Origin: Arsukibacterium sp. UBA5043
GTDB taxonomy: Bacteria; Pseudomonadota; Gammaproteobacteria; Enterobacterales; Alteromonadaceae
Direction of reading: 5' to 3'
DNA length: 64,000 bases
Assembly: GCA_002415085.1 (NCBI GenBank)
Contig: DIBV01000003.1
Span: 62,001-126,000 of the forward strand
Position 1 is the stretch's first letter, and every line of letters starts with the position of its first letter. Made by a program: the position numbers and the translations under genes. The notes below the pieces were generated by a model. It saw only the letters and a program-made list of their open reading frames with translations. It was not told the DNA's origin and made no database searches. This document shows positions 14,015 through 49,009 of this stretch, piece after piece.

Positions 14015-14046
14015 GGCCGTAAAGTGGCTGAACAGGATGGGGAGGG

Positions 14047-14080
14047 CTGTCATATTACTGCAATAAAAGTATCGCATACT
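14047..14080 (+). promoter_or_regulatory. Pho box and -10 of pstS1
   Basis: CTGTCATATTACTGCAATAA (14047-14066) gives two 7-mers (CTGTCAT, CTGCAAT) separated by 4 bases, the PhoB pattern. CATACT at 14075-14080 is a reasonable -10, and the pstS1 ATG is at 14120. Confidence 0.8.
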
Positions 14081-14119
14081 GTGCAGTATCAAATGCATCT
14101 CATACTGAGGATCGATCAA

Positions 14120-15148
14120 ATGAAAATGAATAAGCTTACTAAACTGATTGTTGCTTCTGCCGTCAGCCTGGCGTTTGCTGGGCAAGCTCAGGCAAATCGT
14201 GACACTGTGCAGGTGGCTGGCTCGTCTACTGTGCTGCCGTTTGCTTCTATCGCTGCTGAAGAATTTGGCAATAATTTTGCGCAGTTCCGCACTCCTGTAG
14301 TCGGTTCCGGTGGCTCTTCAGGTGGTTTACGTCAATTTTGTCAGGGTGTTGGCACCAACACCATTGATATTGCTAACTCTTCACGGGCTATTCGTCCGGC
14401 TGAAGTAGAAGCGTGTAATGCCAATGGCGTTAACAACATTATCGAAGTGAAAATTGGTTACGATGGTATCGTGTTCGCGTCACGGATTGATGCAGGCATC
14501 TTTAAATTAAAGCCAGAACACGTGTTTCTGGCCCAGGCTGCTCAGGTGCCGCAAAACGGCAAAATGGTTGCCAACCCTTACACTAACTGGCAGCAAATTG
14601 ATAAGTCTTTACCAGATCAGGCCATTTTGCTAGCTATTCCGGGTTCAAACCATGGTACCCGTGAAGTTTACGAAGAAAAAGTTATTCTGGATGGCTGTAA
14701 AACGTTTGCAGAAGTGCAGGCACTGCCAAAAGCGGAGCAAAACAATTTTTGTTTAGCGATGCGTACCGATGGCAGCGTAGTGGAAATTGCCGGTGACTAT
14801 ACTGAGACATTGGCCCGGCTGCAGGCACAGAAGAATGCCCTGGGCGTGTTTGGTTTAAGCTTTTATGAAGCAAACCGTGACCGGATAAAGGTAGCAACAG
14901 TAAGCGGTGTTGAACCGACCGTAAACAATATCATCGCTGGCACGTACCCGGTTTCACGTCCGCTGTTTTTCTACGTAAAAGGCGAGCATATCGGCGTTAT
15001 TCCGGGCTTGAAAGAATTCGCTGAATACTTCGTCTCTGATGCGGCTTCAGGCTTTGGTAGTCCGCTGGAAATGGCAGGCTTAATTCCACTTGATGATGAC
15101 GAGCGCGCCACCATTATTGCTAACATTCGCGCTAAAAAGTCGCTATAA
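14120..15148 (+). CDS. pstS: Phosphate ABC transporter, periplasmic binding protein PstS (system 1)
   Basis: 342 residues with a signal peptide (MNKLTKLIVASAVSLAFAGQAQA). The phosphate-binding loops are VAGSSTVLPF (first loop) and GSGGSSGGLRQFCQG (second), with GSNHGTREVYEEKV as the third. It captures phosphate in the periplasm for PstCAB. The start at 14120 (or 14126) is set by the leader; the frame opens earlier at 14024 over the Pho box. A terminator follows the gene and a second Pho box precedes pstC, so pstS1 can be made in excess. Of the two PstS proteins here this is the larger and the one with a clear PhoB site. Confidence 0.93.
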   Translation: MKMNKLTKLIVASAVSLAFAGQAQANRDTVQVAGSSTVLPFASIAAEEFGNNFAQFRTPVVGSGGSSGGLRQFCQGVGTNTIDIANSSRAIRPAEVEACNANGVNNIIEVKIGYDGIVFASRIDAGIFKLKPEHVFLAQAAQVPQNGKMVANPYTNWQQIDKSLPDQAILLAIPGSNHGTREVYEEKVILDGCKTFAEVQALPKAEQNNFCLAMRTDGSVVEIAGDYTETLARLQAQKNALGVFGLSFYEANRDRIKVATVSGVEPTVNNIIAGTYPVSRPLFFYVKGEHIGVIPGLKEFAEYFVSDAASGFGSPLEMAGLIPLDDDERATIIANIRAKKSL

Positions 15149-15172
15149 CTGTTTTAGTAAGCTAAAAGAAGC

Positions 15173-15197
15173 AAGAGGACCATGCGGTCCTCTTTTT
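15173..15197 (+). terminator. Terminator between pstS1 and pstC1
   Basis: AAGAGGACC / GGTCCTCTT stem, loop ATGC, then T-run. It uncouples pstS1 from pstCAB expression. Confidence 0.85.
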
Positions 15198-15220
15198 CTA
15201 TTTCAGTAATATGACAGTGG

Positions 15221-15241
15221 CTGTAATAAAACTGCAATATA
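15221..15241 (+). promoter_or_regulatory. Second Pho box, before pstC1
   Basis: CTGTAATAAAACTGCAATAT: 7-mers CTGTAAT and CTGCAAT with an AAAA spacer, 80 bases before the pstC start. The second 7-mer equals that of the pstS1 box. Confidence 0.75.
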
Positions 15242-15318
15242 GGCGCGTTAAGCTGGCGCGGCTTATTTAAGAAGTATTTATCCCTGTGGGATAATCCGGA
15301 TTGGCGAATGGAGCAACC

Positions 15319-16716
15319 ATGAGTAATTTTTCGTTAATTGTACTGCTGCTGGCATTGATGGCTATAGGCTATCAGCTTGGCATGGTGCGCAGTCGCAAGG
15401 TTGCGATAGTTAACCCGCAGCAAAAAATGCACTCCAGACCGCATCATTACGGCATGATGGTCGGCTTGTGGGCCGTTATCCCGGCGTTTTTCATTCTGGT
15501 ACTGTGGACACTTTTGTCCCCTGGGGTGATAAACGGTATGGTGGCCGCCCAGTTGCCTGCAGAAGCGTTAGCCGCAGAAGGGTTAACTGCCGATGTGATT
15601 ATGCGCCGGATCAGCAATCTTGCTACTAATTTTGGTGTGGTGGCAGAGGCTGAGCAGTGGGAGCTGGCCGCTGCTGCGTATATGCAACAATTACAAACGA
15701 GTAGTGCGTTACTGTTAACGGGTCTGATGGCAGCGATAGCCGCAGCGGGTTTGTTTTTCAGTTTTAAACTCATTCAGCCTCATTTGCGGGCGCGCCATCA
15801 GATCGAACGCACCGTTAAAGCCGTGCTTATAATCTGCTCCACTGTTGCCATTTTAACCACTATCGGCATTGTGCTATCAATGGTGGGTGAAACCATCAAG
15901 TTCTTCAGTTTTATACCGCCAGCAGATTTTTTCCTTGGCACTACCTGGAACCCACGCTTTTCGACGACAGGCGTCGCTGAAGGTTCACTGACCGGAAGTC
16001 AGGGAAGTTTTGGCTTGCTGCCGTTGCTTTCAGGTACGATGATGATTGCGGGTATCGCGTTGCTGGTCGCAATTCCCCTTGGTTTAATGGTGGCGATTTA
16101 CCTGGCAGAATATGCACCGGCCAGCTTTCGCGCGACGGCGAAACCCATTATTGAAGTGCTTGCTGGTATTCCCACTATTGTTTACGGCTTCTTCGCACTG
16201 GTAACGGTGGGGCCATTTTTAGCCGATTTTGGCGCCAGTATTGGCCTGACTATCCGGGCGACGTCTGCACTGACAGCCGGTGTGGTAATGGGCATTATGA
16301 TTGTACCTTTTATCTCATCGCTCTCTGATGACATTATTACTCAGGTGCCTAAGGCGCTTCGGGATGCATCGCTTGGCCTGGGGGCGACGAAATCGGAAAC
16401 CATTCGCAAAGTGGTGCTTCCTGCTGCGCTGCCAGGCATAGTGGGGGCGGTGCTGCTTGCTGCCAGTCGGGCTATTGGTGAAACCATGATTGTGGTGCTG
16501 GCGGCGGGTAACAGCCCGACATTAACCGCCAATCCGTTTGAAGCCGTGTCAACGATAACGGTATCGATTGTTAACCAGTTAACCGGTGACAATGACTTTG
16601 CCAGTCCTCAGACCCTGGTCGCTTTTGCATTGGGATTAACCCTGTTTGTCATTACCTTGCTGCTGAATGTTGTAGCGCTGGTTGTTGTGCGTAAATATCG
16701 GGAACAATACGAGTAA
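15319..16716 (+). CDS. pstC: Phosphate ABC transporter permease PstC (system 1)
   Basis: 465 residues, longer than the roughly 300-residue E. coli PstC because of an N-terminal extension with extra membrane helices (about 1-25, 45-65, 130-155 and 175-205) and a periplasmic loop. The permease core has GLMVAIYLAEYAP, IIEVLAGIPTIVYGFFAL, the coupling helix DASLGLGATKSETIRKVVLP and GAVLLAASRAIGETMIVVLA. GGAG lies 6 bases before the ATG at 15319; an in-frame TTG at 15301 is less likely. It forms the membrane channel with PstA, whose gene begins 4 bases after this stop. Confidence 0.92.
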   Translation: MSNFSLIVLLLALMAIGYQLGMVRSRKVAIVNPQQKMHSRPHHYGMMVGLWAVIPAFFILVLWTLLSPGVINGMVAAQLPAEALAAEGLTADVIMRRISNLATNFGVVAEAEQWELAAAAYMQQLQTSSALLLTGLMAAIAAAGLFFSFKLIQPHLRARHQIERTVKAVLIICSTVAILTTIGIVLSMVGETIKFFSFIPPADFFLGTTWNPRFSTTGVAEGSLTGSQGSFGLLPLLSGTMMIAGIALLVAIPLGLMVAIYLAEYAPASFRATAKPIIEVLAGIPTIVYGFFALVTVGPFLADFGASIGLTIRATSALTAGVVMGIMIVPFISSLSDDIITQVPKALRDASLGLGATKSETIRKVVLPAALPGIVGAVLLAASRAIGETMIVVLAAGNSPTLTANPFEAVSTITVSIVNQLTGDNDFASPQTLVAFALGLTLFVITLLLNVVALVVVRKYREQYE

Positions 16717-16719
16717 CTT

Positions 16720-18111
16720 ATGACTGATAACAAACTGAGCTCCACCGACCAAGATGTCGCTGTTGAACCGGTGTTACTGAGTAAAACCCAGCAACAGGTG
16801 GCGGCGTCACTGGCTCGGCGGCACCGTCAGGAAAAGCTGTTTAAAGGCGCTGGGCTGGGGGCTGTCATTATTAGCCTGATCCTGGTCGCTATTTTGTTTG
16901 TTAATATTTTTGCCAAAGGTGTGCCCGCATTCTGGCAGGCGCATATTACGCTTGATATTTATTTCGACCCTGCCGTCATTAGTGTCAGCGAAAAACCAGT
17001 GCAAGGTGGCGATGAAACAGATAATGAATTTCGGCAGCGTTTTATTGAATGGCAAACTGAAGTCGGTATGGTTAACTTTAACCGCTTAATTCTGGAAGGC
17101 TTGTATCAGGTGTTGCCGGAAGCTAAATCACGTGAGTATCGTCGTGACGCAGCGCGGATAGTGACCTCAGGTGAGCGCTACGCCGTGCGCGATATGGTAA
17201 TAGAAAACCCCGATATCATCGGCCAGACCAAAACGGTGCATTTGCTAACTGACGCAAATATAGACGTCTGGTTAAAAGGCAACATTGATCGCAGTCTGCC
17301 TGACTCGCAGCAGCAGCTAAGCCCGAAGGTGCGGCAATGGGTTGAAATGCTGTCAGCGCAGGGCGTTATTGAAAATCGCTTCAGTTTTGCCTTGTTTATG
17401 AATCCCGACTCCCGCAGTTCGCCCGCATCTGCCGGCCTGGCGGGTGCCTTCGTCGGTTCGCTATATATGATGCTGGTAGTGATTTTTCTGGCTGTGCCAA
17501 TGGGCGTAGCAGCCGCGATTTATCTGGAAGAGTTTGCGCCAAAAAACAAGCTTACTGACTTAGTCGAAGTTAATATTAATAACCTGGCGGCGGTACCGTC
17601 TATCGTGTTCGGTTTATTGGGCGCATCGGTCTTTATTGGTTGGTTCAAACTGCCGATGTCGGCACCGATAGTTGGCGGCCTGGTATTGAGCTTAATGACC
17701 TTACCTACTGTAATAATCGCGACTCGCTCGACCCTTAAAGCCATACCACCGTCAATCCGCCAGGCGGCACTGGGGTTGGGGGCGTCTAAAATGCAGGCAG
17801 TTTTTCATCATGTGTTGCCACTGGCTATCCCGGGCATTCTAACCGGCGCCATCATAGGCGTGGCACAGGCTTTAGGTGAAACAGCACCATTATTACTTAT
17901 TGGCATGAAGTCTTTTGTCGCACAAATACCGGCCGGCCCGTTCGAGCAGTCGACAGCGTTACCAGTACAAATATATTTGTGGCAGGGCAATGAGCTTCGT
18001 AACTTTTTTGAAGCCCGTACTTCCGCTGCTATTATCGTATTGCTGGCGTTAATGTTGACATTAAACGGGCTGGCCATCTGGCTGCGTAAAAAATATGAAA
18101 AACGCTGGTAG
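16720..18111 (+). CDS. pstA: Phosphate ABC transporter permease PstA (system 1), DUF3333-type N-terminus
   Basis: 463 residues. After a cytosolic start and TM1 (about 46-66) there is a periplasmic insertion of about 170 residues (about 70-240: FRQRFIEWQTEVG... to ENRFSFALFMNPDS), as in PstA proteins with an added DUF3333 domain. The permease core follows: GVAAAIYLEEFAP, VNINNLAAVPSIVFGLLGAS, the coupling helix AALGLGASKMQAVFHHVLP and GVAQALGETAPLLLIG. It pairs with PstC and PstB. The insertion might contact PstS or PhoR; that is not known from the sequence. Confidence 0.92.
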   Translation: MTDNKLSSTDQDVAVEPVLLSKTQQQVAASLARRHRQEKLFKGAGLGAVIISLILVAILFVNIFAKGVPAFWQAHITLDIYFDPAVISVSEKPVQGGDETDNEFRQRFIEWQTEVGMVNFNRLILEGLYQVLPEAKSREYRRDAARIVTSGERYAVRDMVIENPDIIGQTKTVHLLTDANIDVWLKGNIDRSLPDSQQQLSPKVRQWVEMLSAQGVIENRFSFALFMNPDSRSSPASAGLAGAFVGSLYMMLVVIFLAVPMGVAAAIYLEEFAPKNKLTDLVEVNINNLAAVPSIVFGLLGASVFIGWFKLPMSAPIVGGLVLSLMTLPTVIIATRSTLKAIPPSIRQAALGLGASKMQAVFHHVLPLAIPGILTGAIIGVAQALGETAPLLLIGMKSFVAQIPAGPFEQSTALPVQIYLWQGNELRNFFEARTSAAIIVLLALMLTLNGLAIWLRKKYEKRW

Positions 18112-18179
18112 GTCTGACGCGCAGCGCAGCCAACTCGAGCAAATTAACTGAATAAGTGGTAACTACGGCGGATTTAGCG

Positions 18180-18965
18180 ATGACAGCAATTGAGACAAAC
18201 AGCATTGGCAAGGTAAAAATGACAGCGCGTGATGTCAGAGTTTTTTACGGCGACAATGAAGCTATCCATGGTGTTGATCTGGATGTAATAGAAAACGAAG
18301 TTATTGCCTTTATCGGCCCTTCAGGTTGCGGCAAGTCAACGTTTTTACGTTGTCTGAACCGGATGAATGACACCATTGATATTTGCCGGGTAACCGGCAG
18401 TATTAAAATGGATGGTCGGGATATTTATGACCCGTCGCTGGATGTGGTGCAATTGCGGGCGCAAGTAGGAATGGTATTTCAAAAGCCAAACCCGTTTCCA
18501 AAATCGATTTATGAGAATATTGCTTACGGTCCGCGCCTGCACGGCCTGGCCAGCCGTAAATCAGAACTGGACGATGTGGTCGAGTCCAGTTTACGCCGCG
18601 CCGGCTTATGGAATGAAGTGAAAGATCGGCTGGATCAGCCTGGCACCGGCTTATCCGGTGGCCAGCAACAACGGTTATGTATTGCCCGCAGTATTGCCGT
18701 CAGCCCCGATGTTATTTTGATGGATGAGCCGTGTTCAGCACTGGACCCTATCGCGACTTCGATTATCGAAGAGCTGATTGACGAGTTAAAACAAAACTTT
18801 ACTATTGTAATAGTTACCCACAATATGCAGCAGGCCGCGCGGGTGTCAGACCGTACTGCCTTTTTTCACCTCGGTGACTTAATTGAAATTGGTGCCACCA
18901 ACGAAGTCTTTACCAACCCTATTAATAAGCGAACTGAAGATTATATTACCGGGCGCTACGGTTGA
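18180..18965 (+). CDS. pstB: Phosphate ABC transporter ATPase PstB (system 1)
   Basis: 261 residues from the ATG at 18180 (a GTG at 18156 would add 8 residues). Walker A is GPSGCGKST, the signature [16 protein letters not shown], Walker [14 protein letters not shown] and the switch His is in [13 protein letters not shown]; the end [10 protein letters not shown] is typical of PstB. It powers phosphate import with PstCA. It is closely similar to PstB of system 2. A hairpin follows and no phoU is attached on the 3' side. Confidence 0.95.
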
Positions 18966-22857: not shown

Positions 22858-23418
22858 ATGAAATTCACTTTAACAAAACTATCACTGTGCGCCGCTGCTG
22901 TTTTAATGTCTTCCCTGGTTCACGCCGAAAAGATTGTCAACAACAATATTACTCTTGACGAAGTTAAGGCTGCCCAGCAAGCTTGGGGTAATGCATTGAT
23001 TAATATCAGCAATGCCCACGAGGCGGGTGGAGTAAAGGCGGCTAAATCTGTGGCTAAAAAAGTGTTGGACAATGCATACGGCTACAACTTAGGCGCGGTA
23101 TTATTCAAGCCCACCCTGGCAAATGGCGAGCAGACATTCCGGACAACTTATGACGGTGCGTTATCTTACTTTGTAGCTGACGACAAAAACTTTGCTCAGG
23201 ATTCAGGTTTCGCTTTAAAAGGATGGAAGGAATATGCCTTTAACAATGCTGCAGTCTATATCAATGGCGACGTGGCCCTGACCATGGGCCATGTTCATGT
23301 TACTGACCGATCAGGCAATAAAACCACAGTAGATAAAACCTGGGGCTTTAAAAAAGCCGCTGATGGTTCGTTGCGAATAGTTCTCCATCACTCGTCACTG
23401 CCATACTCGGCAAACTGA
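22858..23418 (+). CDS. Secreted NTF2-like / SnoaL-like protein
   Basis: 186 residues with a signal peptide (MKFTLTKLSLCAAAVLMSSLVHA). The mature protein has a helical first part (LDEVKAAQQAWGNALINISNAHE) and a beta-rich second part ending AALTMGHVHV-like ... TWGFKKAADGSLRIVLHHSS, which fits the cone-shaped NTF2/SnoaL/DUF4440 fold where a small ligand or substrate binds. I see no catalytic motif that fixes a function. AGAGG lies 5 bases before the ATG and a strong terminator follows. Placed between the two-component system and ompW. Confidence 0.75.
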   Translation: MKFTLTKLSLCAAAVLMSSLVHAEKIVNNNITLDEVKAAQQAWGNALINISNAHEAGGVKAAKSVAKKVLDNAYGYNLGAVLFKPTLANGEQTFRTTYDGALSYFVADDKNFAQDSGFALKGWKEYAFNNAAVYINGDVALTMGHVHVTDRSGNKTTVDKTWGFKKAADGSLRIVLHHSSLPYSAN

Positions 23419-24231: not shown

Positions 24232-26892
24232 CTAGTATTTATAAGAGAAGCTTAAACTGTAGCTCTGGCCTTCAGTGCGCTGCTGCAGAATTTCACCCTG
24301 CTGCAAAATTTCCACTTCTTCATCCAGTAAGTTTTTCAAGCCCAGTTTTACGGTCATATTCTCCAGCGGCGTGAAACCATAGGTGAAATCCAGTGAATTA
24401 AAAGGCTGCTCAAAGGCATCGTCTTTGTCGTTAACCCCAGCAAAGGCTATCCGCTTACCGAATACGTTATAGGTAAGGGTGGCATTATGCTGGTTATTGT
24501 CAGAGTCAAAGCCCAGTTGCAGGTTAGCAACATACTTGGAATGGCCGCTTAAGCCCCGCGTCAGGTTGGTTAAATCCGCACCCGGAAACGGTTGAATGCT
24601 GATTTCAGATTCACTGACCGTCAGGTTGCCGGCGACAAAAAAGTTATTGGCAAATTTACCGAATTCGCCGCTAAACATATCCAGTTGCTGTAAAAACTCA
24701 GCTTCCGCACCATACACCTTACCACTTTGGGCGTTACGGAATGACATCAGCAAGTTGCCATCAGAGCCCGATAGTTCGATAGCTTCAATCGGGTTTTCCA
24801 GGTCCTTATAAAACAAACCAAAGCTGTAGTTGCTGCTGTCGTAGTACCATTCTAAGCGGGCATCAAAACTGCCGATGTCGGTGCTCTTCAGGCCGGCAAA
24901 ACCGGTTACTTTAAAGTCGGTTAACGGGTCAACGTACAATACCGGTGTTACTTCCCGTAAATCGGGGCGTACCAAAGTTTTGCTGTAGCCAAAGCGGGCC
25001 TGCAGGTCATCATTGACAAACCAGGTTAATGACAATGCCGGGTAAAAGCCATCTTCCAGTAACACAGAGTCAGTAACGGTACCACTGACAGTGCCATCGG
25101 CAGTAAGTGGCAATGAAATCTGTTTAAAATCTTCATAGCGCACGCCAATGTTTAACCGGAACATGTAATCGTAGTTAATTTCCAGGGCCCCATAGCCGGC
25201 ATCAATCATTTGCGCAGCCAGATAGTCATCGGCCTGGGTAGTAACGTTAGAAATTTTAAAGCCGTTCGCCGGGTTTAAAATATTGCTGTCAGAGAAGATT
25301 TCCGAGAAGCTGCCTGACAGTTGCTCAAGGCTATAGCCTACGGTATCAAAGTTAAAGCGGTCGGTCTGGGCATTACGGCTACGCTCAAAGTAACTGTAAC
25401 CACCGCTGAAGGTCATTTCTGCTTTACCGAATGTTAGCGGTAGCATCACATTCCAGCTCAGGTTTTCAGTGTTATCTTTCATATCACTGAAACTGTAATT
25501 GACTGCATTCTGATTGCGGCGCAGAAATGAAAATACCGAACCATCGTCCTGGGTTTCGTTCAGGTATCGATATTCCACTTCACCGGGCGCATTGCGGCGT
25601 GCTTTGGCATCGGTGTATTGCCAGTCCAGCGCTAAATCCATTAAGTATGGGAAGTTATGCTTGCCCCGCAACTGATTACTCAGCATGGTACGCTCTTCAT
25701 ACAGAATGCTGGTATCGGTATTAGAACGGTTAGTCTCGTTAATGGTTTCGATACTGTCGCCGTTTTTAATCTTAATTTCGTCTTTGGTGTCGCTAAGATA
25801 GATGGTTGAGGTTTCCAGCCGGTGATCAACCCCCAGCTCTAAACCGAAATTCAGCATTCCCGACAGTTTCATCTGATGTTCAGTACCTTTAATATCGTCG
25901 TACCGATTCAGCGGCACCAGATTACTGCCTGATACTGAGTAATAGCGCTCGCGCTCGTCAATGTTTTGAGTGGAACGGTCGTAGCTAAGGCCGGTCATTA
26001 CTCCGAATACCACATTTTTGGCCAGATCAAAGCGGGTGCCAAAAGAAGCGCTGGCATCAAAGTCAGGCTTTACCGTGGTGCGGCTGATATCAATATCGCG
26101 ATTAAAGGCGGTACCCAGCTCTCGCACTATGGTTTCTGCCTGGGCCAGCGTGGTGGCATTAATGCCGCCTAAGGCTTCAGCGATGTTAACCGGCGTCAGA
26201 ACACCATATTGTTGCTGGGCAAAAGCCAGTGCCGGCGAAATACTGCGCTGACCATCGTCTTTACCGCGCCAGTCATCACCACCACCGACATAGTCAAAGC
26301 CATCATCGCTGTTCAGGCTGTTATAGCCGGCGCCGACTGAGACATTAAAACTGGTTTGCAGTGGAATAGCAGTGGTGCGGATATTAACATTACCACCACC
26401 AAAAGCTGCCGGCAGCTCCGGTGAATAGGCTTTCTGCACCACCAGGCTTTCAATAATACCGGCCGGAAACATGTCCAGCGGAATAACGTTGCGGGTTGGG
26501 TCCGGGCTTGGCACCATGGCGCCATTTAATAAGGTACTGGAATAACGCTCACCTAAACCACGCACATAAATAAATTTATCTTTTACCAGGGTTAAGCCGG
26601 TAACCCTGCGCAGGGCGGCTGCAGCATTGCTGTCGCCGGCGCGGGAAATTTGCTCCATACCGAGTACTTCTGCTACATAGGCTTGCTCACGACGTTCTGC
26701 AGCAGCAGAGGCAGCAGAGCTCATCAGGCGGCCGGAGACAGAAATACGTTCGACATCTTCCTGCCCGGCTTGAGTGGGTTCTGGCGTTTCTTGTGCAATG
26801 GTATTTAACGACATCATCGCAGTGGTCGTGCCTAAGGCCAGCAAAACGCTGCGACCAACACGGCTGAAACTAAATTTTTGAATGCTGCTCAT
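24232..26892 (-). CDS. TonB-dependent receptor paired with the duplicated lipoprotein
   Basis: 886 residues. Signal peptide (cleavage near NTIAQE), TonB box region EDVERISVSG (about 46-55), plug with NAAAALRRVTGLTLVKDKFI, then YVRGLGERYSSTLLNGA and SPDPTRNVIPLDMFP, and a long barrel ending FSYKY. The YVRGLG/DPTR plug belongs to a large class of receptors common in Alteromonas-like bacteria, where the ligand is usually a polymer fragment or organic nutrient. On the minus strand it follows the 895-residue lipoprotein gene; a strong hairpin lies between them. Inference: the lipoprotein hands ligand to this receptor. Ligand unknown. Confidence 0.9.
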   Translation of the reverse strand: MSSIQKFSFSRVGRSVLLALGTTTAMMSLNTIAQETPEPTQAGQEDVERISVSGRLMSSAASAAAERREQAYVAEVLGMEQISRAGDSNAAAALRRVTGLTLVKDKFIYVRGLGERYSSTLLNGAMVPSPDPTRNVIPLDMFPAGIIESLVVQKAYSPELPAAFGGGNVNIRTTAIPLQTSFNVSVGAGYNSLNSDDGFDYVGGGDDWRGKDDGQRSISPALAFAQQQYGVLTPVNIAEALGGINATTLAQAETIVRELGTAFNRDIDISRTTVKPDFDASASFGTRFDLAKNVVFGVMTGLSYDRSTQNIDERERYYSVSGSNLVPLNRYDDIKGTEHQMKLSGMLNFGLELGVDHRLETSTIYLSDTKDEIKIKNGDSIETINETNRSNTDTSILYEERTMLSNQLRGKHNFPYLMDLALDWQYTDAKARRNAPGEVEYRYLNETQDDGSVFSFLRRNQNAVNYSFSDMKDNTENLSWNVMLPLTFGKAEMTFSGGYSYFERSRNAQTDRFNFDTVGYSLEQLSGSFSEIFSDSNILNPANGFKISNVTTQADDYLAAQMIDAGYGALEINYDYMFRLNIGVRYEDFKQISLPLTADGTVSGTVTDSVLLEDGFYPALSLTWFVNDDLQARFGYSKTLVRPDLREVTPVLYVDPLTDFKVTGFAGLKSTDIGSFDARLEWYYDSSNYSFGLFYKDLENPIEAIELSGSDGNLLMSFRNAQSGKVYGAEAEFLQQLDMFSGEFGKFANNFFVAGNLTVSESEISIQPFPGADLTNLTRGLSGHSKYVANLQLGFDSDNNQHNATLTYNVFGKRIAFAGVNDKDDAFEQPFNSLDFTYGFTPLENMTVKLGLKNLLDEEVEILQQGEILQQRTEGQSYSLSFSYKY

Positions 26893-26951
26893 CTGAACGT
26901 TGTCCTATCAGCTTAAAACGGTTACTAGTCTTGGTATATCGAATGTCTGAA

Positions 26952-26987
26952 TAAGAAAAGGCACTGCCGGGTTGCCCCGGCAGTGCC
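26952..26987 (-). terminator. Terminator/attenuator between lipoprotein and receptor genes
   Basis: On the minus strand GGCACTGCCGGG / CCCGGCAGTGCC (12 bp, loop of 4) is followed by TTTTCTTATT. It would reduce read-through from the lipoprotein gene into the receptor gene. Confidence 0.8.
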
Positions 26988-26994
26988 GATTTGC

Positions 26995-29530
26995 TTAGTC
27001 TTCCAAGCCAACTGTCCAGCCAGCTGTCCAGTCATTGCCGGCTTCAACTGCACCGATAAAATCAACGGCTTCGAAGAAGCTGTCAACGGCAGACATATCT
27101 TTCGGGGCGGTGGCATCGATGGTAAAGATTCCGTCTAATACCGCAGCCTGATTAGCTGCCACACTATTGCCTTGCTGAGCCAGGAACCACTGTTCAGTGG
27201 TGGTACCGTTGCCCAGGTCGCCTTTGAATGGCTCGGCACAGGCAATGACCGAGTGGGTCATGGTTAATGAACCGGCTGCTGCCAGGGCTTTGGTTTCGTT
27301 TGAATCAAATTCCAGACATTCGCCCATGGTCTCTGGTCCGGTGATAACAAAGTTAGCCAGCTGTGCGTTAGTACCAGCGCGCAGTAATACGCCTTCTGAA
27401 TCGTCGTCACCGTCAAAGCTGTTACCGATAATGGTCAGGTTAGCAACAGTAGGATTGGATACCGGCGTGGCAGTGAAGTTGCCAGACTGGTTATCGGCTT
27501 CAATGCCGCGGTTAGCCTTGGCGCCATCGGCAGCGTGTTTTACCAGCACGAATTGCAGTTTGCCGTTCCAGCCATCTGCCCAGTCTACTGAGTCGTCGCC
27601 GTTAGCAGTTAACACCACGTTTTTACAGCTGACGCTACCGCCGAACATTTCGATACCATCATCCACGTTCTGGTGTACCTGGATATTGGAACATTTTGTG
27701 CCTGAACCGACGCCAGCAAAGGTGATGCCGTTCAGTTCGTTATCCGGGATAACTTCAAAACCAGCATGCTTAACCACCACATAATTTAAGGTACCGCTGT
27801 TATCAGTGGCATTGGCACCACCGTAGGGGCCGGCTTCGCCTTCTGCCTGAATTTCGCAGCTGGCTAAATCTGCCTGATTACATTTGTTGCTCGGCGCGTT
27901 ACCCAGTAGTACTAAGCCACCCCACTGACCGGCAGCGGTTGGCGAGCCGATAATGTCCTGCACTGAGGTCATGACGATAGGGTTGGCGGCGGTGCCGTTA
28001 GCTTCAATTTTTGAGCCCCGGGTAACCACCAGGAAGTCGGCACCTGATTTACCGTAAATCCGCACACCGGGTTCAACAGTCAGGGTGGCGGCAGTAGTTT
28101 TGTCCACACCAATCCGTACCCGGCCACTTAATACATAGTCAGCGCCGGCCGCCAGGGTCACGTTGGCTGTAATGTCACCGGTTAACTGACAGTTTAAGCG
28201 ACCTGATAAGCTGTTAACTTCGCTGGTGCCGGCAGGGCAGGCGGCTAAGTCATCTTCCGGGTGCAGCCCGACCGTCCAGCCTACTGTCCAGTCTTCTTCA
28301 CCGTCAAAGGCGCCAATGTAATCAACATTGTCAAACCAGCTGTCAACGTTGTTTGCGACGTTGTAGCCGTTACCCAGGGCCGGTGAATTCGGCGCAGGGA
28401 TATAGCCACCTAATAAGGCGTCACCAATAATGTTGCCGGGCTGAGCACGGAACCAGGCGTTGGCATCCAGCGTGACGTTACCGGCGTCATCTGTCGAGTT
28501 TTTGGTCGGCTCTGCACAATCCAGAATTGAGTTGCGGAAGATAATTTCGCCATTGCCAGTGTTGGTTACTGACTCAGCAGAGTTAACTTCAAAACATTCA
28601 CCCATGCCCGCCGGGCCGGTGACAATAAAGTTGTATAGCTCACCGGCCGTACCGGCGCGCAGTAACACGCCTTCTGAGTCATCTTCACCATCGAAGTTAT
28701 TGCCGATGATGGTCATGTTGGCAATCCGTGGCTTCGATACCGGTTCAGCGGTAAAGTTACCGGACTGGTTGTCGGCTTCAATACCGCGGTTAGCTTTGGT
28801 ATCGTTCGGGTTATGACGTACTAAAACGTGCTGCATCCGGCCACTCCAGCCATCTGCCCAATCTAAAGAGTCATCGCGGTTGCCGGTTAGCACGACGTAT
28901 TTGGCGTCTACGGTACCGCCGAAAAACTCTACACCGTCATCCAGGTTGTTATGTACCTGAATATATTCAACCTCAGTACCACGGCCGACGCCAGCAAAGG
29001 TAATACCGTTTAGTTCGTTGTCCGGGATAACCTCGAAACCGGCATAGCGTACCTGCACGTATTTAAGAGCGCCGCTGTCATCTTCCGGATCGGCACCGCC
29101 GTATGGGCCGGCTTCACCTTCTGCCTGAATTTCACAACTGGCCAGTGCAGCCTGGTCGCATTTGTTGCTTGGTGCGTTACCCAGTAATACCAGGCCGCCC
29201 CATTCTGCTGATGACTCGTTATCTGATAAGCCCAGCATGTCGTTAACGGAGGTCATAACAATGGGCGCGTCGACTGTACCTACTGCCTGGATTTTCGAGC
29301 CGCGGGCTACTACCAGATAATCGGCACCGCTTTTACCGAAAACAAAGGTGCCAGGTTCAATAGTCAGGGTGGCACTGTCAGCGTTATCGTTACCGACAGT
29401 AACTTTGCCGCTTAGTGACCATGCAATATCATTGCTCAGGCGGGTGTCGCTGGTAATGGTGCCGCTGATTTCACACACTGGCAAATTAACACCGGCCAGG
29501 CTATCGCCTTCGGTGGCAAATGCCGGACAG
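26995..29530 (-). repeat. Internal tandem duplication within the lipoprotein gene
   Basis: The two gene halves, about 28260-29530 and 26995-28245, are recognisably duplicates at DNA level (for instance GGGCCGGCTTCGCCTTCTGC and GGGCCGGCTTCACCTTCTGC at about 27828 and 29107). The copies differ mostly at third codon positions and in a few loops. Confidence 0.85.
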
Positions 29531-29682
29531 TCTGATACCACTGGTGGCGGGTTACCGCCACCGCCGCCATTGCCGCCGCCGTTATCATTGACACCAGTAT
29601 TAACGACTAAATCGCCGCCGCAGCCAGCCAGTATTAACGCTGACGCGATTGCGCTTAGTTTTAACAGTTTGCGTAATGCCAT
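26995..29682 (-). CDS. Large lipoprotein of two tandem beta-helix-like modules
   Basis: 895 residues. Signal peptide with lipobox LAGC, then a Gly-rich linker (GGGNGGGGGNPPP), then two copies of one module of about 420 residues. Each copy has EPG...GKSGAD, a V-ARGSKI segment, MTSV, WGGLVLLGNAPSNKC, QAEGEAGPYGG, AGFEVIPDNELNGITFAGVG, DDGVE/DDGIEMFGG, DWADGW, ANRGIEADNQSGNF and DSEGVLLRAGT. The repeating short beta strands with Asp/Asn-Gly turns look like a right-handed parallel beta-helix. The ATG at 29682 is preferred to that at 29688 because GGAG is then 8 bases away instead of 2. Function not known; the DD/DS-rich loops suggest metal or phosphate-ester ligands. Confidence 0.85.
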   Translation of the reverse strand: MALRKLLKLSAIASALILAGCGGDLVVNTGVNDNGGGNGGGGGNPPPVVSDCPAFATEGDSLAGVNLPVCEISGTITSDTRLSNDIAWSLSGKVTVGNDNADSATLTIEPGTFVFGKSGADYLVVARGSKIQAVGTVDAPIVMTSVNDMLGLSDNESSAEWGGLVLLGNAPSNKCDQAALASCEIQAEGEAGPYGGADPEDDSGALKYVQVRYAGFEVIPDNELNGITFAGVGRGTEVEYIQVHNNLDDGVEFFGGTVDAKYVVLTGNRDDSLDWADGWSGRMQHVLVRHNPNDTKANRGIEADNQSGNFTAEPVSKPRIANMTIIGNNFDGEDDSEGVLLRAGTAGELYNFIVTGPAGMGECFEVNSAESVTNTGNGEIIFRNSILDCAEPTKNSTDDAGNVTLDANAWFRAQPGNIIGDALLGGYIPAPNSPALGNGYNVANNVDSWFDNVDYIGAFDGEEDWTVGWTVGLHPEDDLAACPAGTSEVNSLSGRLNCQLTGDITANVTLAAGADYVLSGRVRIGVDKTTAATLTVEPGVRIYGKSGADFLVVTRGSKIEANGTAANPIVMTSVQDIIGSPTAAGQWGGLVLLGNAPSNKCNQADLASCEIQAEGEAGPYGGANATDNSGTLNYVVVKHAGFEVIPDNELNGITFAGVGSGTKCSNIQVHQNVDDGIEMFGGSVSCKNVVLTANGDDSVDWADGWNGKLQFVLVKHAADGAKANRGIEADNQSGNFTATPVSNPTVANLTIIGNSFDGDDDSEGVLLRAGTNAQLANFVITGPETMGECLEFDSNETKALAAAGSLTMTHSVIACAEPFKGDLGNGTTTEQWFLAQQGNSVAANQAAVLDGIFTIDATAPKDMSAVDSFFEAVDFIGAVEAGNDWTAGWTVGLED

Positions 29683-29688
29683 TACCAT

Positions 29689-30050
29689 CTCTCCGTTGAG
29701 TTGTTATCGGTGTTGCCAATTAAGTTGCAGGCACCCTACAGCAGCTGAATGACGCTTTTATTACATAAATGCGACGCCTGGGTTACAGTGGCAGCAACGT
29801 GTGGCGGTCTCTGGTGTGGCATCAGGTTTGTCAAAAAAAATTCATTTTACTGTCATGTAATGGTGAGCAGCCTAAGGTTTTAATATTGTGACAATTGTTA
29901 TTTAGTTGTGTTTTTGGCTGACGGTTTCCGGGTTAGCTAAGATTAACCTCGTGTTTTCATAAAAATGTCATAAACTGCAGTAATACTAGGTAGCAGAGAC
30001 AGTTAGAACCGTCCGGTAGTGTTGCCGGCTAACAGAATGTGGTGAACCCT
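29689..30050. promoter_or_regulatory. Divergent control region of the lipoprotein gene and phoBR, with Pho boxes
   Basis: This 362-base gap has two sets of PhoB-type units in plus orientation. Set 1: units at 29828, 29839 and 29850 (TTGTCAAAAAA, AATTCATTTTA, CTGTCATGTAA), 11 bases apart. Set 2: TTTTCATAAAA (29954) and ATGTCATAAAC (29965), followed by TAATACT as a possible -10. Set 2 fits phoB autoregulation. Set 1 is about mid-gap and may serve either gene. No ORF is seen here. Confidence 0.75.
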
Positions 30051-30737
30051 ATGGCAAGAAAGATCCTGGTGGTGGAAGATGAAGCCCCGATCCGCGATAT
30101 GTTATGTTTTGTACTGGAACAAAATGGTTATCAGGCTATCACTGCTGAAGATTTCCCCAGTGCGGTCAATCAGCTGATTGAACCCTATCCGGATTTAGTC
30201 TTGCTGGACTGGATGATCCCGGGTGGCAGCGGTATTCAGTTTGCCAAGAAAATGAAGCAGCATGATCTGACCCGTAATATCCCGATTATTATGATCACCG
30301 CCCGCGGTGAAGAAGAAGACAAAGTACGCGGCCTGGAAGTTGGCGCCGATGACTATGTGACCAAGCCGTTTTCACCGAAAGAGCTGATGGCCCGGATAAA
30401 AGCGGTGATCCGCCGGGTATCGCCAACCAGCCTGGATGAAGTGATTGAAGTGCAGGGCCTGAAACTGGACCCGGTAGCACACCGGGTGATGGCAGAGCAG
30501 GAGCCGCTGGATATGGGGCCGACCGAGTTTCGGTTACTGCATTTCTTTATGACGCATCAGGAGCGGGTATACAGCCGTGAGCAGTTGCTGGACCATGTCT
30601 GGGGTACCAATGTTTACGTGGAAGACCGCACGGTCGATGTGCATATTCGGCGCTTGCGTAAAGCGATTTCTATCGCAGGGCATGATAAGCTGGTGCAAAC
30701 TGTGCGGGGCTCAGGCTATCGCTTTTCTGCTAAGTAG
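30051..30737 (+). CDS. phoB: Phosphate regulon response regulator PhoB
   Basis: 228 residues from ATG 30051 (an in-frame GTG lies at 30039). N-terminus [18 protein letters not shown] is PhoB-like; phospho-acceptor Asp53 in [10 protein letters not shown], Lys in [10 protein letters not shown]; winged helix with [31 protein letters not shown] and [14 protein letters not shown]. It activates genes with Pho boxes when phosphorylated by PhoR. The phoR gene follows after 5 bases. Pho boxes upstream indicate self-activation. Confidence 0.96.
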
Positions 30738-30742
30738 GTTTT

Positions 30743-32086
30743 ATGCGGCCACAGCTTTCTAAAGGGAAGATTTTCGCGAAAGTCTTCCTTTTTTATTCCC
30801 TGGCGGGGCTAGTGGGCTGGCCTTTCGGCCAGAGCATGTTGTTTATGCTACTGCTGAGCTTTTATTTGCTGGGATCTAATTATAACCATTTGTTTTTAAT
30901 CACTAAATGGTTGTGGCACGATCGTAAACTGACCCCGCCGGAAGGCAAAGGCTTCTGGCAACAAATTTTCGATGGCATTTACTATCAGCAACGGCGCGAA
31001 CGCAGAAAACGCAAAGAGCTACGTACCCTGGTACGGCGCTTCCGGGATGGTGCAGAAGCCTTACCCGAGGCGGTAGTAGTGCTGACCAGTGACTGGACCA
31101 TTGTCTGGTGTAATAAGCTGGCTCAGATGCTGGTCGGGCTGCGCTGGCCCAGTGACGAAGGCCAGCGGATTGATAACCTGGTGCGTAATCCTGAATTTCA
31201 GAGTTTCTTAAAGCAGAAGCAGTTTCAGCAGCCACTGGAAATCAGTGCCAGCGGCAATAACACCCTGGTGCTGGAATGTAAAATGATGCCCTATGGCAGC
31301 GAGCAGTACCTGCTGATTATCCGCGACATTACCCAGTTAAAGCAGCTGGAACAAATTCGCAAAGACTTTGTTGCCAACGTCTCGCATGAACTTCGCACAC
31401 CGTTAACCGTGCTGCAGGGCTATCTGGAAGTAATAGACGCTGAGCGGTTACCTGATCCTGCCATGTGGCAAAAAGCGCATACCGTGATGCTGGAGCAAAC
31501 CCGGCGGATGGACGGTTTGGTGCAGCAACTGCTGACCTTGTCGCGAATTGAAGCCTCTGCCCGGGTTCAGTTTGACGATGAGGTGGATGTGCCGGCTATG
31601 CTGGCGACTCTGGAGCAGGAAGCCGAGGCACTGAACCATGAAAAGCAGCACAATATCAGCTTTAATATTGAAGCGGATTTAAAAGTGACCGGCGTTACCG
31701 AAGAGCTGCGTAGCGCTTTTAATAACCTGGTAACCAATGCTATCAAATATACCCCGGCCGGTGGCGACATCACGGTCAGCTGGCAGCGCCAGCATCAACG
31801 AGCAGTATTTGCGGTAAATGATACCGGGGAGGGCATCGCACCGCATCATGTTAAACGTTTAACCGAGCGGTTTTACCGGGTGGATCAGGCCCGGGCACGC
31901 AACACCGGCGGCACCGGCCTTGGCCTGGCCATTGTTAAACATGTGTTGTCGCGCCATAACAGCCAACTGATGATTTTCAGCGAACCTGGGCGGGGCAGTA
32001 GCTTCTCTTTTACTATACCGGCCGAACTGGTACTCGGTAACAACAAAACTGCTCCGCTGAAAAAAGCCAAATTTAAGGTGAAATAA
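30743..32086 (+). CDS. phoR: Phosphate regulon sensor kinase PhoR
   Basis: 447 residues. Two N-terminal membrane helices (about 10-28 and 31-47) with almost no periplasmic part, a basic linker (RRERRKRKELR), a PAS domain (about 100-200), HisKA with FVANVSHELRTPLTVLQGYL (His215) and a HATPase domain (NAIKYTPAGG, DTGEGIAPHH, GTGLGLAIVKHVLSRH). The lack of a periplasmic domain is typical for PhoR, which senses phosphate through PstSCAB and PhoU. Convergent with the hypothetical gene 7 bases downstream. Confidence 0.96.
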   Translation: MRPQLSKGKIFAKVFLFYSLAGLVGWPFGQSMLFMLLLSFYLLGSNYNHLFLITKWLWHDRKLTPPEGKGFWQQIFDGIYYQQRRERRKRKELRTLVRRFRDGAEALPEAVVVLTSDWTIVWCNKLAQMLVGLRWPSDEGQRIDNLVRNPEFQSFLKQKQFQQPLEISASGNNTLVLECKMMPYGSEQYLLIIRDITQLKQLEQIRKDFVANVSHELRTPLTVLQGYLEVIDAERLPDPAMWQKAHTVMLEQTRRMDGLVQQLLTLSRIEASARVQFDDEVDVPAMLATLEQEAEALNHEKQHNISFNIEADLKVTGVTEELRSAFNNLVTNAIKYTPAGGDITVSWQRQHQRAVFAVNDTGEGIAPHHVKRLTERFYRVDQARARNTGGTGLGLAIVKHVLSRHNSQLMIFSEPGRGSSFSFTIPAELVLGNNKTAPLKKAKFKVK

Positions 32087-39901: not shown

Positions 39902-41434
39902 TTAATAAACAATTGTTTCTGGCAGGCCCGGGCAATCCAGCCTGAACGCAATTTTCTTCAGGGCTTTTTGTTCCAGCTGCAAATCAGCAGATAACACACT
40001 TTGCTGGGTCAGCCATTCTGGCGGCAATAGCAGTTGTAGCTGCTGGGCACTGGCACTGGCAGTGAATTGCGGGATAAAATCATCGCGTCGTTTCTGATTT
40101 AGCAACACTGCCAGTCGTAATAACACCAATAAATTTATAACCTGAGGCAACTGATACAAACTGAAAATAGGCAGCTCATCTGCCCGGATTTTACGGCGAT
40201 GAAAGCGCACCAGACAGGCCAGTAACTGCTGTTGCTCCTGGTTAAAGCCCGGCAGGTTGGCATTTTGCAAAATATAAGCCGAATGTTTCTGAATACCTGA
40301 CGAGTTAATATGCAGACCAATTTCATATACTCTGCAAGCAAAACTGAGCAGCAGGCCATCGTCGTCAGTCAGCTGCCAGGCCGTTTGCACCTGGTTAAAT
40401 AAAGCCTGAGCGGTGTGTTGTACCCGTTGTGTCTGGGCATCATCAACGGTATACCGGCGCATCATACTGCTGATGGTGTGCTCGCGAATATCATGATGTT
40501 GCAGGCGCTCGCTCATTTCATACAACACGCCTTCTCTGAGCGCGGCATCGACATACACCATCTCATCAATTTGTAGCATGTTAAATGCACCAATTAGAAT
40601 CGCCAGTCCAGGACAAAGCAGCAGTTTGCGATCATCTGTTAAGCCTGCCAGTTCCAGTTCGCTGGCATTGTCGTACTGCAGCACGTGCCGTTTTAAGGCG
40701 GTTAAATCATTCAGCCGCAGACTGGTGCTGTTCCAGCCAAGACCCGCAATCACGTCTTTAATGGTTTTTACGGTACCTGAAGTGCCAACCGCTTGCTGCC
40801 AGCCGGCCGTACGAAAACTACTGACAATGGGCTCCAGTTCCTGCTCGGCTTGTAAAATAGCCCGCTCAAAGCGGCGCGAGCTGATCTTGCCCTGGCTGAA
40901 ATGGCTTTGGCCATAGCTAACGCAGCCCATATTACGGCTGCTTAATCGTAATGGCTGCAGGCCTTCGCCAATAGCAAATTCAGTACTGCCACCGCCAATA
41001 TCAATCACCAGCCGCTTGTTACTGAAATGCTCGAAATGGGCCACGCCCTGATAAATAAAACGGGCTTCTTCCTGACCGGAGATGACTTCTATCGGAAACG
41101 GGAATACCACCTTTGCCCGACGCAAAAAGGTGGCTGAGTTACGGGCCCGGCGCAGGGTGTAAGTGGCTATTACCCGCACTGCATTGGGAGCAAAAGGCTG
41201 CAGGGTATCGGCAAACTGGGCCAGTACCTGTAAACCCCGTTCAATAGCTTCCTCGCTAAGCACCAGCTCATCATTCAGGCCTTCAGCCAACTGCACTTTT
41301 TGCTTTTCCCGATGCAATAACTGCAATGAGCCATCAATTACCCTGGCAATAACCATATGAAAACTATTGGAGCCAAGATCAACGGCTGCCATGTAATCAG
41401 CGTCAGAGGACGCTATTTTTTCAGAATCTGTCAA
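39902..41434 (-). CDS. ppx: Exopolyphosphatase Ppx
   Basis: 510 residues, ASKHA fold. DLGSNSFHMVIAR (phosphate 1), DIGGGSTEFAIGE (phosphate 2) and the SGTVKTI segment are intact; the C-terminal HD-like helical part with YEIGLHINSSGIQKHSAY fits Ppx rather than the shorter GppA forms. It removes phosphate from the end of polyphosphate. It overlaps ppk by 4 bases (ATGA), so polyphosphate synthesis and breakdown are co-transcribed. Confidence 0.94.
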   Translation of the reverse strand: MTDSEKIASSDADYMAAVDLGSNSFHMVIARVIDGSLQLLHREKQKVQLAEGLNDELVLSEEAIERGLQVLAQFADTLQPFAPNAVRVIATYTLRRARNSATFLRRAKVVFPFPIEVISGQEEARFIYQGVAHFEHFSNKRLVIDIGGGSTEFAIGEGLQPLRLSSRNMGCVSYGQSHFSQGKISSRRFERAILQAEQELEPIVSSFRTAGWQQAVGTSGTVKTIKDVIAGLGWNSTSLRLNDLTALKRHVLQYDNASELELAGLTDDRKLLLCPGLAILIGAFNMLQIDEMVYVDAALREGVLYEMSERLQHHDIREHTISSMMRRYTVDDAQTQRVQHTAQALFNQVQTAWQLTDDDGLLLSFACRVYEIGLHINSSGIQKHSAYILQNANLPGFNQEQQQLLACLVRFHRRKIRADELPIFSLYQLPQVINLLVLLRLAVLLNQKRRDDFIPQFTASASAQQLQLLLPPEWLTQQSVLSADLQLEQKALKKIAFRLDCPGLPETIVY

Positions 41435-43566: not shown

Positions 43567-43609
43567 GTTGATTGCTCCTGCTTACTGCCTGCAAAGCACA
43601 CTATGGCAT

Positions 43610-43631
43610 TTTTGTGACAGAATGATGAAAC
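43610..43631 (-). promoter_or_regulatory. Pho box of ppk
   Basis: Minus strand GTTTCAT-CATT-CTGTCAC-AAAA: 7-mers 11 bases apart, the second matching the PhoB consensus fully; CATAGT about 5 bases further is a possible -10. The first 7-mer lies in one arm of the large inverted repeat. Confidence 0.75.
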
Positions 43632-43670
43632 GCGACTGCCAGCTAGCCGCTGGCAGTCGCGTTTCATCAT
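43622..43670. repeat. 22-bp perfect inverted repeat between GcvR-like gene and ppk
   Basis: Arms ATGATGAAACGCGACTGCCA(GC) and its exact complement with a 5-base centre TAGCC. It could end the GcvR-like transcript but no T-run follows on either side. One arm overlaps the ppk Pho box. Confidence 0.9.
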
Positions 43671-43704
43671 AACTGGGGATCACCATAGGTAAGGTAACGG
43701 GGGG

Positions 43705-44214
43705 TTAGTCTACTGAGGTTTCCACATCTACCACAATATCAGCAGCAATAGCTTCCAGAGCCTTAATGACCTCATCACGGCTCAGGCCTGCTGGCAACTG
43801 CACTGTGGCTTCAGCATGAAACAGCGGTACCCCCCAGTTTGGCGCACTTTGTCTGTTACTGGAAAACTGAATAATATTCGTACCCTTATGCTTAATCACC
43901 GACGATAATTCACGGACGATTCCGGCGCGATCATTGCCGGTAATAACAAAGCGCAATTGTTGTTGTTTGTTCAGCTCGCTCTGCTCACCTTGCTGCACTT
44001 TGATATCTAAATCGCTAATCTTGCTCAGCGCGGTGACTAAAGCTCCCAGATCAGGTTCTGCCACTTCTATTTGCACTATGCCGGCAAAATAACCTGCCAG
44101 ATGGCTTAAGTTGCTGGCCATCCAGTTGCCATTTTGGTCATTTATTACCCTGGCTAACTGTTCTACTAACCCTGCTTTATCTTTACCAATAACGGTAAGG
44201 ACTAACTGCTTCAT
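43705..44214 (-). CDS. GcvR-like double ACT-domain regulator
   Basis: 169 residues from ATG 44214 (AAGGG 8 bases before it; a GTG at 44235 gives 7 more). Two ACT domains: LVLTVIGKDKAGLVEQLARVIND (about 4-26) and RFVITGNDRAGIVRELSSVIKHKG (about 87-110). This layout is that of GcvR, which represses the glycine cleavage operon through GcvA, and of related amino-acid sensing proteins. No gcv genes are near. It may sense amino acids or nucleotides; the partner is unknown. Confidence 0.82.
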   Translation of the reverse strand: MKQLVLTVIGKDKAGLVEQLARVINDQNGNWMASNLSHLAGYFAGIVQIEVAEPDLGALVTALSKISDLDIKVQQGEQSELNKQQQLRFVITGNDRAGIVRELSSVIKHKGTNIIQFSSNRQSAPNWGVPLFHAEATVQLPAGLSRDEVIKALEAIAADIVVDVETSVD

Positions 44215-44418
44215 ATTGACATCCCTTACTATCACTAAAGGTTAAACCGCCGGTGAGCGGTCAGCTATTACATAATATACGTGAAAAAGTGTTTTAGAGT
44301 GTAGACCCAACTTTATGATTTTAAAACGCTAGTTAACTATTTATTTTTGGTTTGCTGTCTTGTCATGCGCAGCTGTTATAAGATAGGGCCAGCAAGTCTG
44401 AAAGTACGGGTATAAAAG

Positions 44419-48169: not shown

Positions 48170-48197
48170 TAAAACTGTAACATTAGCAGGGTAAGAT

Positions 48198-48965: not shown

Positions 48966-49009
48966 CGGATTCAGCAAACAGCACATTTAACAGCAGCAAG
49001 GGTCAGGCA

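Follow-up and report, generated by a model that had tools for sequence, protein, structure and literature searches.

To our knowledge, the passage of organic or complexed phosphorus across the outer membrane is poorly understood. The closest described system is that of Caulobacter, where ElpS (CC0170), described in 2010, is a surface-exposed lipoprotein that is made under phosphate starvation and released with the help of a type II secretion system (T2SS); homologues occur in Shewanella and Bacteroides, and homologues of elpS and cc0171 co-occur across genomes (PMC2996285). Relatives were described in 2020 in Flavobacterium johnsoniae, whose FI, FII and FIII share 31–36% identity with the Caulobacter lipoprotein at 50–54% coverage. 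FII and its receptor form a low-phosphate-induced pair, and Fjoh_0546 (Fjoh_0545/0546, ‘PUSIV’) adjoins a receptor and phoBR and is strongly induced at low phosphate (PMC8115612). According to a 2024 study, the PhoB regulon of Caulobacter takes in the T2SS, the Pst system and a variety of TonB receptors (PMC11208175). Here we analyse a lipoprotein gene and a TonB-dependent receptor gene that lie beside phoBR in 64,000 nucleotides of Arsukibacterium sp. UBA5043 (assembly GCA_002415085.1, contig DIBV01000003.1, positions 62,001 to 126,000; this whole stretch is called the window). Judged by homology and gene order, the pair belongs to the ElpS/CC0171 type of Caulobacter. We hold with fair confidence that it scavenges phosphorus, the lipoprotein capturing a compound that the receptor then imports with energy from TonB.

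The lipoprotein gene (26995–29682, minus strand) encodes an ElpS-type surface lipoprotein of 895 aa. Its open reading frame (ORF), 26995–29688, gives 897 aa from the first ATG; a second ATG at 29682 has a better-spaced GGAGAG and is preferred. The signal peptide (29623–29688, minus strand, read from the translation) ends in LILAGC-GG, that is, a LAGC lipobox followed by GG. A module hidden Markov model (HMM) places module 1 at residues 51–478 (28255–29538) and module 2 at residues 481–897 (26998–28248), both on the minus strand and with residues counted from the 29688 start. Over 434 columns the modules share 57% identity (E 2.5e-166), which bears out the two modules of about 420 residues named in the preliminary description of this DNA. 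Downstream, after a gap of 102 bp and on the same strand, lies the receptor gene (24232–26892, 886 aa). The ORF, a domain search and an alignment identify its product as a CC0171-type TonB-dependent receptor with Plug (PF07715) and barrel (PF00593) domains and the plug motif YVRGLGERY; a YVRGLG-type TonB receptor had been claimed beforehand. Searched against PDB, the receptor profile finds colicin I receptor chains only, in the plug region (best E 2.1e-7); this match carries no hint of the ligand and was rejected as a clue to it.

A scan of named genomes led to a locus of Caulobacter vibrioides T5M6. Both modules align with its ElpS over the full length, module 2 at 40% identity (E 4e-81) and module 1 at 38% (E 1e-73), and the window receptor is 32% identical to the elpS-adjacent receptor over 907 columns (E 1e-114). 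The order there is elpS, then a YVRGLG receptor, then a secretin gene with a GspD-type N0 domain. This agrees with the published order CC0170 (elpS)–CC0171–gsp (PMC2996285) and so supports the ElpS identity; T5M6 is not the published strain, and it is the species name, the homology and the gene order that equate its ElpS with CC0170. The pair had been put forward as a candidate undescribed one. Because both modules and the receptor are homologous to the published ElpS pair, that part of the claim falls: the family has already been published as ElpS/CC0171 (PMC2996285) and, by way of PMC8115612, as Flavobacterium FII and its receptor.

The lipoprotein gene is divergent from phoB (30039–30737, plus strand, TIGR02154 above cut-off) and phoR (30743–32086, plus strand, PF11808 and PRK11006 above cut-off). 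We scored the region between them with a matrix built from nine Escherichia coli PhoB boxes. The box of phoB, TTTTCATAAAAATGTCAT (29954–29971, plus strand), scores 17.6, the third best of 127,966 window positions, and is kept with small changes in 21 of 21 genus loci. A middle element, AATTCATTTTACTGTCAT (29839–29856, plus strand, score 6.5), forms an aligned block, with changes, in 19 of the 21, and the box upstream of the lipoprotein gene, ATGTAATAAAAGCGTCAT (29749–29766, minus strand, score 6.3), is kept in place in all 21, where scores range from 3.3 to 18.1. The PhoB-type repeats noted earlier in this region are present, one of them strong and two weaker ones conserved in position among congeners. 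Further top-scoring window positions lie near pst system 1, the PF07396 porin gene and ppk.

The signal extends to relatives that do not belong to the close genus set. At 18 of 21 of their loci the best score in the 250 bp preceding the lipoprotein gene reaches at least 12, compared with 30 of the 216 other genes taken from these loci (Fisher p 1.4e-11; the 216 include phosphate genes of these loci, which makes the control strict, and the tests treat related loci as independent). Even where phoBR does not lie within the fetched stretch, which is the sense of ‘not beside phoBR’ here, a PhoB-type box precedes the lipoprotein gene at 11 of 13 loci (p 1e-7). These box statistics leave out L086–L089, L124, L130, L256 and L265–L269. 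From the conserved boxes we infer that PhoB induces the lipoprotein under phosphate starvation.

The lipoprotein and the receptor also travel together. We compared 60 genomes, namely that of the window, those of 30 congeners and 29 others. At thresholds of E <= 0.001 for the lipoprotein and E <= 1e-100 for the receptor, the pattern is all-or-none: the same 28 genomes carry both genes and 32 carry neither, which supports the earlier view of the two as a pair. Within the genus 22 of 31 carry both and nine neither. The pair is divergent from phoB in the window and in 20 congeners. One further congener (G028, locus L086) has a different, more distant pair (35–41%) and a TonB motor cluster beside phoB, which suggests a replacement of the usual pair. 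A Porin_4-type porin gene (336–345 aa) precedes phoB instead in eight of the nine congeners without the pair (L272–L280), at one of them (L279) with a transposase gene between porin and phoB. With this porin in its place, the pair has the appearance of a cassette that one site beside phoB has gained or lost.

Pairing holds well beyond the genus. Among 55 loci examined of the 80 fetched from named records, a YVRGL-type receptor lies directly downstream in 50; of the five without one, three lie where the contig ends. A search with a Sphingomonas relative (E <= 1e-15) detects family members in 51 of 398 phylum genomes, an evenly drawn sample. Twenty loci from 19 of these genomes (all 17 gammaproteobacterial ones not already covered, and two others with doubled proteins; class and order names in this sample are a reading from kinship labels and named relatives) were examined, and ten further loci alongside them. 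At the 20, the receptor lies directly downstream in 16 and upstream in two, one has a weak upstream match only, and one has no adjacent receptor. Three longer lipoprotein relatives (L087, L088 and L089) have no receptor match within the 14–16 kb fetched.

The neighbours of the pair vary. A DUF3450-ExbB-ExbB-ExbD-TonB set adjoins it at six of the 18 loci of the phylum sample from the window's class, one of which ends after ExbD at the end of the stretch; L083, L085 and L086 have phoBR together with this motor set, and L084 the motor set. On the Alteromonas macleodii plasmid pBGP9 the genes stand in one row: phoB-phoR-pstS-2OG oxygenase-lipoprotein-receptor-DUF3450-ExbB-ExbB-ExbD-TonB-TPR. T2SS genes follow the pair in the alphaproteobacteria Indioceanicola and Sphingomonas and at two further, more distant loci. 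Five loci (L083, L255, L260, L261 and L125) have a 2OG-Fe(II) oxygenase gene immediately upstream of that for the lipoprotein. A TonB motor adjacent to the pair was considered for the window and rejected, none lying next to it; the window's genome has a single DUF3450 match, on contig C1, where it sits in a cluster that also has ExbB, ExbD and TonB matches and no strong PhoB-type box. The same genome has a GspD above cut-off on another contig, plus gspE and gspN matches, none adjacent to the pair.

Between the two genes of the window lies a terminator-like hairpin (26950–26987, minus strand) with a perfect 12-bp stem, a GCAA loop and a T-rich tail. Hairpins with T-rich tails occupy the same gap in 19 of 21 genus loci, with stems that differ in sequence (shuffle expectation 0.9), in 15 of 27 other loci (shuffles 1.5) and in 22 of 45 named-record loci (shuffles 1.0), the 45 being the receptor-bearing ones, out of 50, with a gap of at least 25 bp. 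The shuffles used for hairpins and for boxes keep base composition only. Where it is present, such a hairpin predicts more lipoprotein than receptor.

The window lipoprotein has no match in sequence searches of Pfam, NCBIfam and PDB chains, and profile searches with the family found no fold and no related solved chain; sequence and profile searches likewise gave no Pfam or NCBIfam family and no related solved structure for ElpS-type lipoproteins as a whole. The SusD family has no match in Pfam for the window lipoprotein or for 47 aligned relatives, in keeping with the earlier remark that the protein looks unlike SusD, and a SusD-like or BtuG-like lipoprotein was rejected for want of any sequence match in Pfam, NCBIfam, PDB and the profile searches. 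NCBIfam searches of 48 relatives matched 15 families, 11 of them in one member each. The best single-member match was to an S-layer family (8.2e-6), and the SslE metalloprotease family matched four of the 48 (best E 1.7e-4); we took these matches for low-complexity or signal-peptide matches and set them aside. PF13229, taken as a sign of a right-handed beta-helix, matched one of the 48, at E 0.82.

Conservation in the family is concentrated in acidic residues. In 48 aligned sequences (window module 2, whose numbering is used here, and 47 relatives) E136, E171, D196, D197, E200, D218, D219, D222 and E250 are invariant, and the motifs DDGxE and DDxxD are conserved. A comparison of 42 modules that spans Gammaproteobacteria, Alphaproteobacteria and Bacteroidota keeps D197, D218, D219, D222, N270 and N299 in all 42. 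E136, D196 and E200 are kept in 40, the exceptions being L087 and L088, relatives without a receptor found nearby; these two are without D196 and E200 and retain the second acidic motif. E250 is replaced by D in one of the 42 modules, and E171 differs in three. No residue of the acidic set is missing from either window module, and both modules are therefore probably functional. We read the conserved carboxylates as a putative cation-dependent binding site, a catalytic site being the main rival reading. With a pI of 4.07 the mature lipoprotein is strongly acidic, and together with the conserved carboxylates this makes direct binding of a free phosphate polyanion look less likely than cation-bridged binding.

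Taken together, these features suggest the following course of events. Under phosphate starvation PhoB would switch on the lipoprotein, which would reach the outer membrane and, by analogy with Caulobacter ElpS, be exposed at the cell surface. A compound that contains phosphorus would be captured by its modules, probably by way of a cation bound to the conserved carboxylates, and handed on to the product of the downstream gene. This receptor, powered by TonB-ExbB-ExbD, would carry the compound through the outer membrane, as its family and the motor genes beside the pair in some relatives suggest, and periplasmic phosphatases and the Pst system would complete uptake. The terminator-like hairpin would yield more lipoprotein than receptor, and the doubling of the module may provide higher binding capacity or reach.

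Several observations weigh against this account. We know of no member of the family for which a ligand, a complex or transport has been demonstrated. The pair is missing from nine of the 31 genus genomes, and phoBR adjoins it at only five of the 18 phylum-sample loci of the window's class. The box matrix gives false positives, the second-best position in the window lying inside the receptor gene (25476); the score of the lipoprotein box (6.3) falls within the shuffle range (95% point 7.9), so that only its conserved place favours it. At the three alphaproteobacterial loci scanned, Caulobacter included, an E. coli-type box is absent (best scores 3.6 to 7.1), and the gap of the T5M6 locus contains no hairpin. 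Hydrophobic periodicity of the kind expected of a beta-helix was negative (best autocorrelation 0.12, shuffle mean 0.13); with no fold from the profile searches either, the ‘beta-helix-like’ module of the preliminary description could not be substantiated. In Caulobacter, deletion of elpS left the alkaline phosphatase activity of supernatants unchanged, and the receptor gene is stated to be expressed in both rich and poor media, with data not shown there (PMC2996285).

The strongest alternative is that the lipoprotein is a surface enzyme, a phosphodiesterase, a phosphatase or a polymer-cleaving hydrolase or lyase with catalytic Asp and Glu residues, whose product the receptor imports. DDGxE and DDxxD, conserved and 22 residues apart, would suit such a site, and their spacing is also compatible with one rung of a helix without proving it. 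Further encouragement comes from the Flavobacterium relatives, which were modelled on polygalacturonase (PMC8115612), and from phosphatase activity that is reported to rise on overexpression of elpS (PMC2996285). We nevertheless judge an enzyme unlikely and prefer binding to catalysis, because neither refolded nor immunoprecipitated ElpS had alkaline phosphatase activity (PMC2996285). The window protein, moreover, matches no enzyme family in Pfam or NCBIfam, and among the 48 relatives such matches are isolated.

Less likely still is that the lipoprotein activates or anchors secreted phosphatases while the receptor serves mainly for sensing or takes up an unrelated ligand. This would follow the proposal of the Caulobacter authors that ElpS activates an unknown phosphatase and is released by a T2SS-secreted protease (PMC2996285), and it would suit the T2SS genes beside the pair in Indioceanicola, Sphingomonas and the two further loci. 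In the window's genus and several relatives, however, it is phoBR, pstS or TonB motor genes that adjoin the pair and not T2SS genes, and the close pairing of lipoprotein and receptor does not follow from such a role. The window's genome encodes PhoX, a calcium- and iron-dependent enzyme. That the pair imports a metal or metal complex for phosphate-regulated enzymes such as PhoX, and not a phosphorus compound, is very improbable: the acidic, carboxylate-rich lipoprotein, the oxygenase gene upstream at five loci and the presence of PhoX speak for it, whereas phoBR and pstS recur as neighbours, and ElpS was unresponsive to added iron and elpS to iron depletion (PMC2996285).

The number of modules varies across the family. 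A single module is present in Caulobacter, in Sphingomonas and in the three members from Bacteroidota that were examined, as well as in some close relatives (for example L258, with 533 aa). Two are found at 19 of 21 genus loci, at six loci of other relatives in the first set, and in Pseudoalteromonas Bsw20308 and Indioceanicola; Alteromonas macleodii pBGP9 and Pseudoalteromonas shioyasakiensis have three. In a tree of 45 modules from 27 proteins, which include six of the 19 doubled genus ones, genus modules 1 (support 100/99) and 2 (98/99) form separate groups, and a duplication within the genus is accordingly not favoured. The deeper forks of this tree are weakly supported and several long branches are flagged. 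The single module of two congeners (L078 and L079) falls in the module 1 group (100/99), which points to a probable loss of module 2 in both. The Indioceanicola doubles and the Alteromonas and Pseudoalteromonas triples form groups of their own, from which it appears that module number probably changed several times. We take module number as variation within the ElpS family and not as a defining feature.

The surroundings of the pair form a large phosphate island. Pst system 1, recognised by domain and family searches of the window, lies at 14024–18965; the wider window also holds the PF07396 porin gene, ppx-ppk and a second pst-phoU set. The placement of the pair between pst system 1 and phoBR, as first described, stands in that both genes share a strand and phoBR adjoins them; four kinds of gene separate pst system 1 from the receptor, namely the PF07396 porin, a two-component system, a small protein and OmpW. 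The small protein (22858–23418), between the two-component system and OmpW, matches the NCBIfam metal-independent carbonic anhydrase family at 229.7 bits, below the cut-off of 350. On the far side of phoBR, 39902–49720 contains ppx-ppk and the second pst-phoU set; the PhoB-type boxes of ppx-ppk lie at 43603 and 43614.

The family, the pairing of lipoprotein and receptor and the link to phosphate are already published. Added here are the doubled and tripled forms, the all-or-none co-occurrence, the clusters with phoBR and a TonB motor, the statistics on PhoB-type boxes, the hairpin between the genes and the set of conserved residues. A literature search, outside whose reach lay subscription papers and preprints, recognised no account of the doubled form or of a phoBR–pair–TonB cluster. 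The lipoprotein is now linked to its receptor, to PhoB-type boxes in many relatives and, at some loci, to a TonB motor. With a small conserved residue set named, its function becomes directly testable. More tentatively, and with less than even confidence, we propose that pairs of the ElpS type make up a second class of two-component outer-membrane importers, one that does without SusD, is dedicated to phosphorus and ranges from Bacteroidota to Gammaproteobacteria. In this class a cation-dependent module in one to three copies would cap its own receptor, and in some relatives of the genus phoBR, pstS and the pair's own TonB motor would be packed with it into one phosphate-uptake cluster.

Set against known systems, the window pair is closest to ElpS/CC0171. 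They share full-length homology of each module and of the receptor, a lipobox, a lipoprotein gene that comes first on the same strand and the link to phosphate. They differ in that Caulobacter ElpS has one module (about 50 kDa) and the window protein two, in that the Caulobacter neighbours are T2SS genes and those of the window phoBR, and in that the window's hairpin and E. coli-type PhoB boxes were not found at the T5M6 locus. Flavobacterium FI–FIII resemble the window in having a receptor and a surface lipoprotein beside phoBR, with induction there at low phosphate; this link is the relation stated in PMC8115612 and not a direct sequence comparison. Among Bacteroidota members, all three one-module, the receptor gene comes first in Parabacteroides and Aureibacter and the lipoprotein gene first in Hymenobacter. 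SusC/SusD and PusC/PusD share the arrangement of a receptor with a surface lipoprotein, whereas the window lipoprotein has no SusD family match. BtuB/BtuG come near in another way, as a receptor and a non-SusD surface lipoprotein that act together; they differ from the ElpS type, whose lipoprotein family, compared by sequence and not by fold, matches no solved chain.

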